A model generated the notes under the pieces. That model had not been told where the DNA came from and did not search any database. It saw only the letters and a list, made by a program, of their open reading frames with translations. Made by a program: the position numbers and the translations under genes. 64,000 bases of DNA from Vandammella animalimorsus (GTDB lineage: Bacteria; Pseudomonadota; Gammaproteobacteria; Burkholderiales; Burkholderiaceae_C). Below, piece by piece: positions 615-62,500 of this stretch. Each line of letters starts with the position of its first letter. Position 1 is the first letter of the stretch. Location: positions 682,001 through 746,000 of the forward strand of contig NZ_NSJF01000001.1 in assembly GCF_002285285.1 (NCBI RefSeq), read 5' to 3'.

Positions 615-842
615 GACGACACTCTCTCATTGATTGGAATCATCGGCTGCCAATGCTGCATGCCGTGGGTCTGTACAGGCCAAGGCATGGGGCGATGCGG
701 CCCTGACGCCAATTGCTGCGCCTCGTCTGGAGAGGCGCATTTTCGGCATCGATTCTAAACCAAGCCCCTTTGCAGAGGCCCTGCGGCAGACTGTGCTGGA
801 CAAGACAAGAGGGTTGGAAAAACGCGTCTGATCAGGCGCTTA

Positions 843-1108
843 GAGCGTGTTATGCACTTTTCGTCCCCCGCGAGAGCCCCCCGGCGTGTGCAGTGCAAGG
901 CGCCGTTGCCGCCGCAGCCCGGTGGGCTGCAAGGCGACGGCAACGCCGCAATGCGCATGCCGGGGCGCTCTCCCTTCGGGCTGACCCCAAAACCATGCAC
1001 TCGCCGCGTTGGCCCGCTTGCCAAGGCAGCCAGCCTTGGCAAGCGCGCCGCCTTGCGATTACACGGTTTTGGGGCCAGCGCGGGGGGCGAAAAATGCATA
1101 ACACGCTC
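843..1108. repeat. 266-bp MITE-like inverted-repeat element, family A
   Basis: The ends are near-perfect inverted repeats of about 31 bp (GAGCGTGTTATGCAC at the left, its complement at the right, two mismatches) and are flanked on both sides by TA (841-842 and 1109-1110). There is no convincing coding sequence inside; internal smaller inverted repeats (around 903-948 and 1014-1052) suggest strong secondary structure. The copy at 57796-58061 has exactly the same length and a similar internal plan but diverged sequence. The right end overlaps the folD stop codon. TA duplication and the absence of a transposase fit a non-autonomous element mobilised by an IS630/Tc1-type enzyme, which is inference. 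Confidence 0.8.
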
Positions 1109-1968
1109 TAATTTTTGCCTGCGGCGCGTTGGGCCGATTCGATGGTGTTGGCCAGCAGCATGGTGATGGTCATGGGGCCGACGCCACCGGGCACAGGGGT
1201 GATCCAGGAGACCACTTGCTGCACTTGCTCAAAGTCCACATCGCCGCAGAGTTTGCCCTGAGCGTTGCGGTTCATGCCCACGTCGATGACCACGGCCCCG
1301 GGCTTGACCATCTCGCGCGTGATCAGCTTTTCCTTGCCTACGGCCGCAACCAGTACATCCGCCTGGCGCGTGATGGCCCCCAGATCGGCTGTGGCGCTGT
1401 GGCAGATGGTGACGGTTGCACTGCGCGCCAGCAGCATCATGGCCATGGGCTTGCCAACGATGTTGCTGCGCCCGACGACCACGGCGTGCTTGCCGCGCAG
1501 CTCATAGCCGATGGCGTCCAGCATTTGCAGGCAGCCGTGCGGCGTACAGGGCCAGAAGCCACCTGGCAGGCCGGTCATCAGCGCGCCGGCGCTGGCGACG
1601 TGAAAGCCATCGACGTCCTTTTCCGGGGCAATGGCTTCGATCACGGCATCGGCATCCAGATGCTTGGGCAGGGGCAGCTGTACCAGGATGCCGTGAATGC
1701 TGGCATCCGCATTGAGCGTTGCGATGTGCCCAAGCAGCTCTTCCTGGCTGGTCTGGGCCGGCAGCTTTTGCAGCACGGAGTGGATGCCTGTTTCCTCACA
1801 GGCCTTGATCTTGTTGCGCACGTAGACCTGCGAGGCCGGGTCCTCGCCCACCAGCACCACAGCCAGCCCGGGGCGAAGCCCCTGATCGTTCAGGGCCTGG
1901 GCTTGCTGGGCGATTTGCAGTCGCAGTTTTTTTGAAAGGGCAAGGCCGTCGATGAGTTGGGCGGGCAT
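1108..1968 (-). CDS. folD: Bifunctional methylenetetrahydrofolate dehydrogenase/cyclohydrolase FolD
   Basis: FolD interconverts 5,10-methylene-THF, 5,10-methenyl-THF and 10-formyl-THF in the cytoplasm, feeding purine and formyl-Met synthesis. The 286-residue length is normal. The N-terminal catalytic domain has the Y49-xxx-K53 pair (YVRNK) and the conserved DVDGFH segment; the NAD(P)-binding Rossmann half has [12 protein letters not shown] (about 164-175); the C-terminal [10 protein letters not shown] signature is intact. The stop codon TAG is formed by the TA flank plus the first base of the repeat element, so the insertion fixed the present C-terminus (AAGKN). It lies downstream of the regulator/kinase pair on the same strand. 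Confidence 0.97.
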
Positions 1969-20255: not shown

Positions 20256-20292
20256 GGGGCGACTGGGGCGGCGGGCAAAGCATAGAATCTTA

Positions 20293-20453
20293 GAGCCTGT
20301 TCAAAATCTCGGCGCGAGTGGGCAAGAAGCGGTTTGGGATGGGCTGCAAGGCGCAAAACGCAGCCATAGCTGGGGCTATGGCGAGGCTTTGCAACGCAGC
20401 AGAGCGCCCAAATCCGCGCTCTTGACCGCCGTGCAAAGATTTTGAACACGCTC
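20293..20453. repeat. 161-bp family A inverted-repeat element
   Basis: The ends are GAGCCTGTTCAAAATCT and its near complement AGATTTTGAACACGCTC, flanked by TA on the left (20291-20292) and TG on the right. The interior has an additional perfect hairpin (GCAGCCATAGC with its counterpart around 20360-20386). The first 50 bases and the last 50 bases align well with the element at 31245-31370 (shared GGGCAAGAAGCGGTTT and CCGCGCTCTTG). Confidence 0.8.
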
Positions 20454-20455
20454 TG

Positions 20456-40792: not shown

Positions 40793-40871
40793 GGTGTATT
40801 GGCAATCGGAGGCAATCGAATGGGGGAGTCTCGGCGCGCGCCGGGTGCAGCCAGCAAAGAAAAGCGCGCTA

Positions 40872-41009
40872 GGGGTTGTTGAGATGGCGTTTGCGAAGCG
40901 CTTTTTCGAGGCAAAAGCCGCAGATGCAAGGCGAAAATGCGCGCAAGCTTGGCTACCTTGCAAGCATTTGACCGAAAACAGCGCCGCAACACTCCATCTC
41001 AACAACCCC
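40872..41009. repeat. 138-bp family B inverted-repeat element
   Basis: The ends are GGGGTTGTTGAGATGG and its near complement CCATCTCAACAACCCC, flanked by TA (40870-40871) and CA. The interior shares long stretches with the element at 58429-58556 in reverse orientation (GCGAAGCG, GAGGCAAAAG, GCAAGGCGAAA, GACCGAAAAC, GCCGCAACACT). It fills part of the 471-base gap between nadK and fis. No coding sequence lies inside. Confidence 0.8.
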
Positions 41010-41263
41010 CAGGACCTTCACCCTTCATTTGGCGCGGCAAGTATAGCGGTAGAAACTGAGCGCCCGGCGCGCATGGCCAGCGGTGTCAACGCTAAGGCGC
41101 ACGCGCTCCATCCGCCCTTGCCGGCGGCTGCGGCAAGCTGCGGTATAGTCCCGCCTCCGTAAAAACTGGCCCCTTGTCTTTTTCAACACAAGGCGCCGGT
41201 GCGCTTGGCCGCAATGCCTACTTTTTGTGCATGGCCAGGCACCGCCTTAGTACCACGCCCAAT

Positions 41264-48724: not shown

Positions 48725-48746
48725 CGTGAACAAGCCCTAGAAGCAG

Positions 48747-56278: not shown

Positions 56279-56890
56279 TCAGGCTGGCGGCTTGCCAATG
56301 CGGCGCTTGGGCGGCTGCCATTCGCGCTCGGTCATGGCCTGCACCCGCGCGCCGGCCTCGCCCATCAGCTGGGGCAAGAGCTGCGCCTCGGGCAGCAAAT
56401 GCCAGTACTTCTGCGGCATCTCCTGGCGCATCATGCGCGGGTTCAGGCGCGCGGGGTTGAAGATGTGTGCGTAATAGGTCTGCCCAGGCAGCTCGCGAAA
56501 GCGCACGAAGGCTTTCATCTTGTGCGTATCGCGGCGCACGGCCTGCGCCAGGCGCATGGCGTGATGCACATCCGGGTCGGTCACTCTGTCGAGCAACCCA
56601 CGCTCGCCCGAGGCCAGCCGCCACAGCAGCCGGTACAGCAGGGCAAAGCGCTGCGGCTCGCGGTGGCACAGCGCCTGCATGGCCAGCGCCAGGAAATTCT
56701 TGGGCACATGGGGCGCAGGCCGCTGCACAGGCGCTTGGGCCACTGCCGCAGCGGCGATCAAAGTGCGTTCATCGCCGGCCAGCCAGTCCAGCGCCTCGGG
56801 CGCAATGGCCGCGCACCAGGCCTGGCGGGCCTGGTCGCGCCAGGCCTCGAGCGACCATGGCAGCGCCACCCGTGCCTGCCAGTGGCTCAT
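56279..56890 (-). CDS. DUF4130 (TIGR03915-type) putative DNA-repair protein
   Basis: A 203-residue protein matching the DUF4130 domain that accompanies the repair-associated radical SAM protein and that is elsewhere fused to UdgX uracil-DNA glycosylases. Visible pieces are LLYRLLWRLASGERGLLDRV, VRRDTHKMKAFVRFRELPG, YYAHIFNPARLNPRMMRQEM and LLPEAQLLPQLMGEAG. The C-terminal glycosylase domain is absent. It starts by ATGA overlap with the stop of the radical SAM gene, which is broken here, so the partner is missing. Function beyond the family name is unknown. Confidence 0.85.
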   Translation of the reverse strand: MSHWQARVALPWSLEAWRDQARQAWCAAIAPEALDWLAGDERTLIAAAAVAQAPVQRPAPHVPKNFLALAMQALCHREPQRFALLYRLLWRLASGERGLLDRVTDPDVHHAMRLAQAVRRDTHKMKAFVRFRELPGQTYYAHIFNPARLNPRMMRQEMPQKYWHLLPEAQLLPQLMGEAGARVQAMTEREWQPPKRRIGKPPA

Positions 56891-58416
56891 GCGAACAAAT
56901 CCCCCTGCCGTGGCTTGGGCGTGAGCCACTGCCGCAGTGCGGCCGGATCATCGAGCTGGCGTTGCGGGTGGTGGTCGGGCAGCAGGATGAAGGGCAGCAT
57001 TTTCTTCATCGGCGCACGCAGACGTGCGATGTCGGCCAGCCGCAAGGCGCCACTGCGGCGGCTGGCGATGATGCGCTGCACATTGCGCACGCCCAGGCCA
57101 GGCACACGCAGCAGCATCTCCTTGGGCGCGCGGTTCAGATCGACCGGAAAGCGCTCGGGATGGCGCAGCGCCCAGGCCAGCTTGGGGTCGATGTCCAGAT
57201 CGAGCATGCCATCGCTGCGGGCATCGGCGATTTCCTCGACCTCGTACTGGTAAAAGCGCAGCAGCCAATCGGCCTGGTACAGGCGGTGCTCGCGCAGCAA
57301 GGGCGGAGCCTTGGCTGGCAGGCGGCGCGAGGCATCCGGGATGGGGCTGAAGGCCGAGTAATACACCCGGCGCAGGTGGTAATCGCCATACAGCCGTGCG
57401 CTGGTGCGCAGGATCTGCGCATCGTTGGCCGCATCGGCGCCCACGATCATCTGCGTGCTCTGCCCGCCGGGGGCAAAACGCGGCGCGCGCACCCCGGCCG
57501 GGCGGCCCGCCATGGCCCGCACTTTGGGCGAGCGCGCCTCGCGCGCCTCGTCGATGCGCCACTTCACGGCACCCATGGCCTCGTGGATGCCGGCATGGGT
57601 TTTCTCCGGCGCCAGCTCAGCCAAGCCAGCCTCCGTGGGCAACTCAATGTTGACGCTGAGGCGATCGGCATAGCGGCCCGCCTCGGCCAGCAACGCATCG
57701 CTGCATCCAGGGATGGTCTTGAGATGGATGTAGCCGGCAAAACGATGCTGCTCGCGCAGCCGCCGCGCCACCTCGATCATCTGCTCCATGGTGCAGGGCC
57801 TGTTCACCTTATGCAAGGAGTCGCGAAGGCATGAAAAATCGCTCCGATCAAGGCGCACGTCGCAGGGCGTATGTCGATACGCTCAAGACGGGCAACGCCG
57901 AGCGGGGGGATTTTTCATGCCTTCCCCAAGGGTTGGGGTCTGTAGGGGCCGACCACGGCGTTGGCAATCCTCGCAAGGCATCCAGCCTTGTTGCGGTTGC
58001 CGCCTTGTGCTCGGCCCCTACAGGCCCCAACGCGATCTCCTTTCATAGGGTGAACAGGCCCTAATCGCCCGAGCGGATGATGCCGCTGGAGAGAAACAGC
58101 CCTTCGATGTAGTTGCGCTTGTAGAAATCCAGCGTCAGCTTCACCAGCTCGTCGATGGCAAAACGCGCCCTGGGCACATGCTGGAAATGCGGTTGACGCA
58201 GTAGGCGCAGTCGTAGATGCAAAAATTGGTCAGCAGCAGCTTGAGCAACGACACGCAGCGCCCGTCCGGCGTGTAGCTGTGGCAGATGCCCATGCCCTCG
58301 GTGCTGCCAATGCCACCGCTTTTGGCCGAATTGCGCTTGCCTGCCCCACTGGATGCGCAGGAGGCGTCGTATTTGGCCGCATCGGCAAGGATGGCGATTT
58401 TTTTGATGGTCTCCAT
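56887..58416 (-). pseudogene. Radical SAM DNA-modification/repair protein (TIGR03916 type), doubly disrupted
   Basis: The intact family member is a single radical SAM protein. Here the N-terminal part (58141-58416) has the cluster motif CIYDCAYC and GICHSYTPDGRCVSLLKLLL. Near 58178 one base is missing in the codon after CVNRISS, so translation shifts; the next stretch FAIDELVKLTLDF continues in another frame to GIIRSGD. There a 266-bp family A repeat (57796-58061) interrupts between Asp and Tyr of the family motif DYTMEQ. The C-terminal part (to 56887) is an open frame beyond it with helix-hairpin-helix motif VPGLGVRNVQRII. No single product can be made. Confidence 0.9.
57796..58061. repeat. 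266-bp family A inverted-repeat element inside the radical SAM gene
   Basis: The ends are GGGCCTGTTCACC and GGTGAACAGGCCC (perfect 13-bp, then CTTATG/CATAGG degenerate), flanked by TA at 58062-58063 and CA at 57794-57795 (a TA with one change). Removing the element and one flank restores GATTACACCATG, Asp-Tyr-Thr-Met, as in the protein family. The length equals that of the 843-1108 copy. The interior includes a perfect-looking arm pair around 57954-58025 (GTAGGGGCCGA and TCGGCCCCTAC). Confidence 0.9.
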
Positions 58417-58428
58417 GCGGGGATGTTA

Positions 58429-58556
58429 GGACTTGTTGAAATTTAGTGTTGCGGCGGTGTTTTTGGTCAAAAAACCGTAACTGCTGCGTTTCGCCTTGCA
58501 TTTGCGACTTTTGCCTCACAAAACCGCTTCGCCAACCTCATCTCAACAACACGCTC
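58429..58556. repeat. 128-bp family B inverted-repeat element
   Basis: It runs from GGACTTGTTGAAATT to TCTCAACAACACGCTC and is flanked by TA on both sides (58427-58428 and 58557-58558). It is a reverse-orientation relative of the 40872-41009 element over its whole length. The right end (ACACGCTC-TA) is identical to ends of family A copies, which ties the two families together. It lies just upstream of the broken radical SAM gene and downstream of the flavodoxin. Confidence 0.8.
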
Positions 58557-58608
58557 TAAGCGCACGAACTGCAGCGCCGTGTGCCTCTGCGGATTTGCCC
58601 CAAGCTCC

Positions 58609-59553: not shown

Positions 59554-62500
59554 ATGTCCGCCCAGACGTCTTCCGATGCGGCGCAAGCCGACATTGCATC
59601 CAGTGGTCCCTGGCCGCTGACGCCCGCCCAAACCGGGCTGTGGTATGCCCAGCAGCTCGACCCTGGCAACCCCAGCTTCAACACCGGCCATGCACTGTGG
59701 CTGCAAGGCTCGCTGGACGTAGCGGCCTTTGCAGAGGCGGCCAACCAGGCCGCGCGCGAGGCCCAGGCGCTGTGCCTGCGCTTTGGCCTGCGCGCAGATG
59801 GCCAGGGCGTGCAGCAGTGGCTGGATGCGGCGCACGTGCCCGAGCTGGAAATCATTGACCTGAGAACCTGTCCAAAGTCCCAGCCAGACTCCAGCCAGTG
59901 CGCAGAGCACGCAGAGCACGCAGAGCACGCAGAGCACGCAGAGCACGCAGAGCAGACCAAGCAGGTCGCACAAGAGGCCATGCAAGCCGACATGGCCCGC
60001 CCGCTCGATCCCACGCGCGACCGACTGGCGCGCCAGTGCCTGTTCGTACTCGGCCCCGGACGTTACTGCTGGTACCAGCGCGCCCACCACCTGTTGTGCG
60101 ACGGCTATGGCATGGCGCTGTGGGAAGGCCGCGTCACTGCGCTGTACAGCGCCGCTCTGGAGGCCCGGCAAGCCCTGCCGGATGCGGATGCGACAGCGGG
60201 TGCCTCCTCGCAGCGCCCGCTGGGGCCGCTGCAGCCCGTCATCGACGAGGCCCTTGCCTATCCGGCCAGTAGCACCTGCCAGGCCGATGCAGCCTATTGG
60301 CGCGAGCTGTTCACACCCGCGATCGAGGTGGCCAGCCTCTCGGCCCAGCCGCACGCCAAGGCCCAGGCCGCGCACCACTGCCTGCGCCTGAGCATCGCAC
60401 TGCCGCAGGCCTGGCGCGAGGCCCTGCTGGCCTTTGCCCAGCAGCAGGCCATCCCCTGGCCCGATGTGCTCACGGCATTGGCGGCGCTGTACTGCCAGCG
60501 CATGGCTGCAGCCGCGCAAACCGTGGTGGGCATCCCCTTCATGGGGCGGCTGGGCAGCGCCAGCGCCCGCGTGCCGGCCATGGTGATGAACGTGCTGCCG
60601 CTGCCCGTGGCCGCCAGCGACGAGCAGGCCATGGCCCCCTGGCTGCAGACCATGGCCCGCGCGCAACTGCAGGCGCGCCGCCATGGCCGCTACCGCAGCG
60701 AGCAGCTGCGCCGCGACCTGGGTCTGCTGGGCGGGCAGCGCCGCTTGTATGGCGCGCTGATCAACGTCCAACCCTTTTACCAGCCCGTGCGCCTGCCAGG
60801 CCTGCAGACGGAGCTGGAAATCCTGGGCACCGGCCCCATCGACGATCTGACCATCGGCTTTCGCGGCGATGCCCGCCAGATGCTGGAGCTGGAGCTGGAG
60901 GCCAACCCCAATCTCTACACGCCAGAACAATTGCAGGCCCACTTGCTGCGCCTGCCCGAGTTCATCGCTCAGGCGTGGCTGGCCAATACCCTGGGCGAGC
61001 TGCGCCTGGCCAGCCAGGCCGAGGCCCAGCGCTGCCTGTTCGACTTCAACGCCACCGCGCACCCGGTGCCGCAAACCACGCTGGCTGCGTTGATCGAAGC
61101 GCAAATGCAGCGCAGCCCCCAGGCCACGGCCTTGGAGTACGAAGGCCAAAGCCTGAGCTACGCCGAGCTGGATGCGCGCACCAGCGCCCTGGCCCAGGCG
61201 CTGGTTGCCCAGGGCGTGGGGCCCGACGCCCTGGTGGCCGTGGCGCTGCCGCGCTCGCTGGAGCTGCTCATCGCCCTGGTGGCCGTGCTGCGCGCCGGCG
61301 GCGCGTATCTGCCGCTGGATTTACAACACCCCAGCGAGCGGCTGGCGCGCATCGTGCAATTGGCCCGCCCCATCTGCGCCTTGGCGCAACAGGCCGATGC
61401 CGCGCGGCTGCCCGCCGGGCTGCCTTGCCTGCCGCCAGCGGCCTGGCCCACTGCGCCGGCCGAGCCCGATGCAGCCCAGCCGCTGCCCGCGCCCCAGCCC
61501 CAGCACCTGGCCTACGTGATCTACACCTCCGGCTCCACCGGCGAGCCCAAGGGCGTGATGATCGAGCACCAGGCCATCGTCAACCGGCTGGAATGGATGC
61601 GCCAGCACTACGGCTTCGACGCCAGCGACCGCATCCTGCAAAAAACCCCGGCGACCTTCGATGTCTCCGTCTGGGAGTTCTTCCTGCCGCTGCTGTGCGG
61701 CGGCACGCTGGTGATCGCCCCGCCAGAGACGCACCGCGACCCGGCCTGGCTGGCGCGCATCATCCGCCAGCAGCGCATCGGCACCTGCCACTTCGTGCCC
61801 TCCATGCTGGCGGCCTTTCTGGCCGAGCCGCAAGCGCGCGGCATCCAGATGCGGCGCATCTTCACCAGCGGCGAAGAGCTGCCCGCTTCGCTGCGCCAGC
61901 GCCTGCACGCCACGCTGCACAGCCAGCTGCACAACCTCTACGGCCCCACCGAGGCCGCCGTGGACGTGAGCTACTGGGACGCCGGGCCGGACGACCACGC
62001 CCAGCCCGTGCCCATTGGCCGCCCGGTCTGGAACACCTGGCTGTACGTGCTCGACGCCCAACTGCGCCCACTGCCGCCGGGCGTGGCCGGCGATCTCTAC
62101 CTGGGCGGCGTGCAACTGGCGCGCGGCTATCTGGGGCGCGAGGACCTCACAAGCGCAGCCTTTGTGCCTGACCCGCACCGCCCTGGCCAGCGCATCTACA
62201 AAAGCGGCGATCTGGCGCGCTGGCGCGCCGACGGCGCGCTCGAATACCTGGGCCGCAGCGACCAGCAAATCAAGTTGCGCGGCCTGCGCATCGAACTGGG
62301 CGAGATCGACGCCACCCTGCTGCGCAGCGGCATGCTCGAACGCGCCAGCGTCATCGTCCACACGGACGAGCGCGGCGATAAAAAACTCGTGGCCTACGTG
62401 CAGCCCAAGGCCGAGCACAGCCCACTGAACAGCGCCGCGCTGCTGCGCTGCGTGGCCAGCCAACTGCCCGACTACATGGTGCCGAGCACCGCCGTGGCGC

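Follow-up and report, generated by a model that had tools for sequence, protein, structure and literature searches.

The question raised by this locus is what interrupts a radical SAM gene in the window (the whole 64,000-nucleotide stretch of Vandammella animalimorsus DNA that was analyzed), what moved it there, and what its structured interior represents. The reading that we favor, with a probability of roughly 0.7, is that of a nonautonomous element moved in trans by an IS5-family transposase into a TA dinucleotide of the gene, with an interior that constitutes a separate module. That the interruption is a real insertion is plain; it is an ordinary one for which the empty sites give unusually strong proof. 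The element is exactly 266 bp long and lies inside the gene, as the first-pass annotation of this DNA had described, with the ends GGGCCTGTTCACC and GGTGAACAGGCCC and with CA and TA as its left and right plus-strand flanks (Table 1). The TIGR03916 family to which the minus-strand gene belongs comprises radical SAM proteins linked to a UDG-like partner, and the gene is probably a DNA-repair gene. Read in the direction of the gene, the sequence is TA-element-TG where the site is filled and TA where it is empty, and the duplicated TA together with the first base of the element creates an in-frame TAG stop (open reading frame 58061-58519). A second, independent frameshift lies near 58.18 kb, and the gene, intact orthologs of which exist, is therefore broken twice.

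Table 1. Coordinates of the element, its parts, its neighbors, and related elements (window positions unless a genome or locus is named)
Feature	Position	Strand	Evidence or remarks
Nonautonomous TA-flanked element (MITE-like), two-arm type, 266 bp	57796..58061	.	Four full genome copies, length kept exactly, empty sites
Left copy of 2-bp target duplication, decayed to CA	57794..57795	+	Sequence and empty-site comparison
Right copy of target duplication, TA	58062..58063	+	With base 58061 gives TAG stop in coding direction
Left terminal inverted repeat, ends GGGCCTGTTCACC	57796..57824	+	Helix 1 of element family
Right terminal inverted repeat	58033..58061	-	Helix 1 of element family
Alpha-arm core (CAAGGCG ... 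CAACGCCG, with hairpin)	57838..57911	+	Model R2, E 2.1e-14; element in training set
Mini-hairpin CCC/GGG between arms	57925..57933	+	Helix 6, pairs invariant in 31/31 elements
Beta-arm core, opposite strand	57945..58018	-	Model R2, E 1.2e-19; element in training set
Radical SAM gene, 3' part	56887..57795	-	TIGR03916, E 6.9e-102, profile 117-399
Radical SAM gene, 5' part, itself split by frameshift near 58.18 kb	58062..58416	-	TIGR03916 fragment, E 5.5e-15, profile 75-114
Partner gene, TIGR03915/DUF4130	56279..56929	-	Profile matches
Two-arm relative, ends TTAGAGCGTGTTATGCA	about 840..1111	.	Cores 885-959 and 993-1066, E 1e-9 and 2.1e-8
One-arm relative, ends TAGAGCCTGTTCAAA	20291..20455	.	Core 20336-20410, E 2.9e-14
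Host IS5-family copy	G000:C1:913-1296 (L146 516-1337)		821 bp, ends GGCCGAATCGACATTCA, TA both sides
Arm-less palindromes	G114: L123, L124, L125, L128, L131; G150: L104, L105		47-51 bp

Orthologs matching the downstream part of the gene are present in three of the 40 genomes searched, namely the host and two members of the same genus, G006 (98% amino acid identity) and G001 (60%); the other 37 have no match to the radical SAM protein and are thus uninformative on the empty site. In both G006 and G001 the gene is uninterrupted at the insertion point, and their alignments with the interrupted gene break exactly at the element ends, which confirms the empty site at precisely the predicted place. 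The earlier proposal that deletion of the element and one TA flank restores the gene holds in its arithmetic, but the flank removed is not an intact TA; it is a decayed one, which reads CA on the plus strand and TG in the coding direction.

The host genome contains three more full copies, each 94 to 95% identical to the interrupting element, and all four are 266 or 267 bp long. One of them lies between two pirin-like genes (named by eye), and the corresponding empty site is present in genome G009, which is 97 to 98% identical there; this empty site reads CA, the filled site has TA and TG, and we infer that TA was the target here too. Both insertions with empty sites consist of 266 bp plus a 2-bp duplication with one duplication copy decayed in each, and one flanking TA has decayed in the interrupting element and in two of the three other copies. 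Movement by insertion at TA, as the first-pass annotation had proposed, is accordingly supported by the ortholog empty site at this locus and by the second empty site for another copy. TA also recurs at the flanks of copies more widely: of 44 two-arm elements (45 were found, and L042 was dropped as a spurious pair), 42 are flanked by TA at one end or both, 31 of them at both. Since many of these came from a TA-containing pattern, the 18 found by similarity, without that pattern, were counted separately, and TA is present on at least one side in 16 of them and on both sides in 6; TA accounts for 1.0% of the dinucleotides in the window. Elsewhere in the window, around position 48737 on the minus strand, is a single element end, GGGCTTGTTCACG, with TAG beside it and with no matching partner found.

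REP, BIME, and REPIN elements resemble this family in having paired inverted structured units in many copies, but they are not known to have TA-flanked long terminal repeats. The interrupting element has terminal inverted repeats, no transposase gene, a longest internal open reading frame that is short, a target duplication with an empty site, and an autonomous partner with the same ends in other genomes. In these respects it is of the same kind as the bacterial MITEs (RUP, ERIC, and others) described in passages of PMC2229807, which are likewise noncoding, bounded by inverted repeats, flanked by TA, and multicopy; it differs in belonging to a group whose families have different ends but retain a structured interior. 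The outline of the element is thus of a known MITE kind, and what is new is the structured core common to many ends and taxa.

The ends are informative as to the mover. The pattern TAGGGCCTGTTMACR is present in 57 of 150 genomes of the host's family, and its reverse does not occur among the matches listed; opposing ends in these genomes are spaced about 50, 150 to 180, 245 to 296, and 820 to 829 bp apart. The 820- to 829-bp class corresponds to complete insertion sequences (seven distinct, in five genomes) with TA on both sides and two overlapping reading frames. The one that was scanned (L073) matches PF13340, an IS4/5-family transposase domain (2.1e-21), and PF01609 (1.5e-12), and the other six are assigned to IS5 by the likeness of their reading frames. 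They share the termini GGGCCTGTTMAC and the TA flanks with the element but encode a transposase and have no arms, whereas the element has no such gene; we take them to resemble the IS427 group of the IS5 family. The first-pass annotation had pointed to a transposase of the IS630/Tc1 type, and the TA target and its duplication are indeed traits of such elements. TA duplication is, however, common to the IS5-type elements here and is therefore not diagnostic, and with insertion sequences bearing the same ends falling in the IS5 family by Pfam, it is highly improbable that the element is an IS630/Tc1-type MITE; an IS630/Tc1 mover is not supported and is set aside.

Pieces of related transposases are present in 12 of 60 relatives, with nine copies in G013 and eight in G027. 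The host has a single transposase relative with 39% identity, located in an insertion sequence with other ends (Table 1). A search of the host genome for an insertion sequence terminating like the element came up empty: the sole opposing pair of such ends at a suitable spacing, 1.25 kb apart on contig C12, sits within a coding region, has no TA beside it, and is attributed to chance. We therefore infer, rather than observe, mobilization in trans of the interrupting copy by an IS5-family transposase of this kind. On the best available evidence the mover would be of the IS5 type and absent from, lost from, or missed in the host genome. Its transposase would cut and paste the element ends in trans; the insertion itself, for which the radical SAM gene supplied the TA target, duplicated that dinucleotide. 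Among the element families of another genome, G222, repeat copies of the ends are present, and no partner insertion sequence was recognized.

The interior of the element is a conserved fold. The DNA of the element folds 13 standard deviations below shuffled sequences, with none of 200 shuffles as good; together with the other full copies and the recurrence of the end pattern in the family, this speaks against a chance arrangement of letters. The length of two-arm elements is maintained at 263 to 267 bp in 15 of the first 18 extracted, while identity drops to about 65%. A consensus fold of 31 two-arm elements contains 94 pairs with 93.6% of cells paired and is organized as a terminal stem, a beta arm, a CCC/GGG mini-hairpin, and an alpha arm. 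Double compensatory changes are present in 73 of the 94 base pairs, and the covariation score of 0.614 compares with 0.175 for shuffled alignments and 0.087 to 0.132 with the partners slid. The beta motif GC[GA]TTG is on exactly one side in 43 of 44 two-arm elements, and each strand thus carries one arm in its sense orientation. No Rfam model matches the window (at gathering thresholds) or any of five loci (at E values up to 0.5), so an RNA gene known to Rfam was discarded as a candidate, and no promoter or terminator signal is present within the element.

The arms can be separated from the ends. None were found inside the insertion sequences with matching ends, for which three weak matches (E 0.054 to 0.57) all lie outside, and genomes G114 and G150 contain arm-less elements of 47 to 51 bp (7 of the 10 loci checked) that consist of ends only and are near-perfect palindromes with TA on both sides. 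As both the insertion sequences and these short elements lack arms, arms are not needed for use of the ends; they are therefore modules, either acquired by ends or shed by elements once these had inserted.

The distribution of the arm core was followed with a covariance model (R2) that replaced an earlier model (R1) of poorer structure; the fifty cores from which R2 was built come exclusively from the family of the host, with no Neisseria sequence among them. At an E value of 0.1, and among the candidates scored, which are part of all, R2 identifies 94 arms in the host, 58 in G006, 15 in G013, 27 in G066 (a member of another family), 21 in one Neisseria gonorrhoeae record, and none in G060. 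At an E value of 1e-5 there are matches in 60 of 229 genomes of the host's class and in 47 of 299 genomes of the phylum, 24 of the latter being outside the class. A fixed core pattern is present in at least 117 stretches of named genomes, which among the matches listed (80) are mostly from Burkholderiales with a few others, and some of the non-Burkholderiales stretches may be misbinned or chance matches. An alignment of 147 arms has 74 well-filled columns, of which four are invariant and several others more than 95% conserved; one nonstandard contact covaries (A-C, U-A, and G-A).

From the aligned arms, 61 elements could be delimited by their TA flanks and inverted repeats, with lengths of 155 to 168 bp in 24 and 256 to 275 bp in 29; their ends form 25 clusters, at least five of which look like inner boundaries, and the number of end types is thus given as about 20. 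A single core thus occurs in elements of two sizes, with TA-flanked ends of about 20 kinds. The interrupting element had earlier been offered as proof that the many inverted repeats in the window are mobile, and this is supported only in part: the arm core recurs in two others, at 840-1111 and at 20291-20455, and elements similar to the latter recur in G006, but most of the remaining inverted repeats listed for the window have neither these ends nor this core. Other sequences in the window include an inverted repeat at 40868-41012 (GCTAGGGGTTGTTGAGATGG) with a CAAGGCG-like stretch inside and no core-model match listed, and a further inverted repeat at 58426-58560, just past the radical SAM gene start, with ends TTAGGACTTGTTGA and TCAACAACACGCTCTAA and a weak core match within it (58473-58509, E 0.0059). 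A run of AEH-type codon repeats is located at about 59900-59960, near the start of a 1,395-aa NRPS-like open reading frame.

The matches in N. gonorrhoeae connect the core to a known repeat. Correia repeats are numerous in the record concerned, which is 2.17 Mb long and labeled a plasmid, and its three best R2 matches are Correia elements of about 104 bp; two N. gonorrhoeae records labeled plasmids, NZ_CP119140.1 and NZ_CP119142.1, are 2.17 Mb and chromosome-like. As described in passages of PMC2229807 and PMC2649163, Correia elements (NEMIS or CREE) are about 100 to 155 bp in length and, like the element here, have TA ends, a target duplication, and inverted repeats around a conserved core, and they disrupt genes. 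They differ in having one arm, in being shorter, and in their unrelated ends; the 26-bp Correia terminal repeat (TATAGTGGATTAA...) is not present in the element, which is therefore not itself a Correia element. This repeat is referred to as Neisseria-only, and the mobilizing mechanism as not determined, in passages of PMC2649163 (2009). An autonomous Correia-ended insertion sequence was considered and rejected, as the 1.9-kb end pair at W01:496593-498510 is without a large open reading frame, and no Correia elements were found in phage records.

The conserved core between the repeats, a Correia trait, is where the two groups meet. In 30 loci retrieved by the Correia end (90 kb in total), R2 gives 12 matches at an E value of 0.01, and 11 of these are on a Correia element, although Correia elements fill only about 3.5% of the 90 kb, which is the fraction of matches expected by position; the other 19 of the 30 loci have no match at this threshold. 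That the likeness reflects convergence or chance rather than a common module is unlikely, even with only 11 of 30 loci reaching E 0.01 at the element, with a 155-bp Correia form (L171) giving no R2 match at an E value of 1, with unrelated ends, and with an inner stem that aligns poorly in the best Correia matches, where the model calls nonstandard pairs. A model that contains no Neisseria sequence places 11 of its 12 matches on Correia elements, and the core letters CAAGGCG ... CAACGCCG are at the same places in them, both of which argue against coincidence. The core is thus likely, if not proven, to be common to the element family and Correia elements. The literature that was searched, most of it outside subscription journals, contains no description of such elements outside Neisseria, and the core-bearing group, which is widespread and likely includes Correia repeats, is apparently previously undescribed.

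The noncanonical pairs in the stems bear on whether the arm works as a folded strand. Among 125 arms (45 of 170 were dropped as being without an ungapped lower stem), each read in its own sense, there are 150 G-U and 34 A-C pairs. In 81 clustered arms the numbers are 104 and 20, declining to 45 and 17 when the four positions adjoining the core are excluded, such that most of the asymmetry is in those four. The asymmetry is gone (79 versus 63) if each element is instead read along a single strand from end to end, as would be expected of two arms with opposite senses; absence of strand preference, as that count had indicated, was abandoned once each arm was read in its own sense. The G-U preference points to a folded sense strand, RNA or single-stranded DNA alike. 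DNA hairpins tolerate G-T better than A-C, and the wobble count therefore does not separate DNA from RNA.

An arm structure devoid of function is improbable. In such a scenario the inverted repeats are kept perfect by replication template switching and the core is a remnant that recombination has passed from element to element, consistent with stems that are nearly perfect yet highly variable and with the lack of strand bias in the element-wise reading. However, neither the sense-strand preference for G-U over A-C nor the retention of unpaired letters in the core, where four of 74 columns are invariant in 147 arms, would be expected from template switching. Somewhat less doubtful, although still unlikely, is that the arms act as single-stranded DNA: one sense arm would always fold on the lagging-strand template, whatever the orientation, and recruit a replication or hairpin-binding protein that aids transposition or copying. 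The presence of one sense arm per strand (the one-sided beta motif in 43 of 44), the strong DNA fold, and a wobble count that fits DNA as well as RNA are all compatible with this, but the arm-less elements in two genomes and the arm-less insertion sequences indicate that arms are not required for movement.

RNase III binds and cleaves Correia transcripts, according to passages of PMC2649163 and PMC10969869, and by analogy RNA is favored over DNA; our guess is that the arm core acts as a folded single strand of RNA. The interior module consists of two arms, one per strand, each folding on its sense strand around the same conserved core. As the module is common to elements with quite different ends and to Correia elements, it is not there for the benefit of one transposase. 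As each strand carries one sense arm, RNA could be made by read-through from either side, and we speculate, again from the RNase III precedent, that a conserved host factor acts on folded RNA from the arms, by processing or by binding it, and so makes insertions tolerable.

More broadly, and tentatively, the arm core may be a single mobile nucleic acid module, present across the Pseudomonadota, that persists by exchanging its ends and is carried by any TA-targeting transposase available in a genome, while a conserved host factor recognizes the core in its folded, single-stranded form. Correia elements would be its Neisseria branch, with a mover that is a TA-targeting transposase with matching ends, perhaps since lost. 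For the host, the disrupted radical SAM gene is an ordinary case of gene loss by insertion, and it is the Correia link that would interest specialists. If the group has about 20 kinds of ends and Correia elements form one of its branches, the fit of transposases to ends becomes comparable across the group, and a conserved partner of the common core becomes testable by comparison. If these relationships are true, a sizable quantity of repeat DNA that is currently unannotated, with 94 arms in the host genome alone, would become a defined and searchable family.
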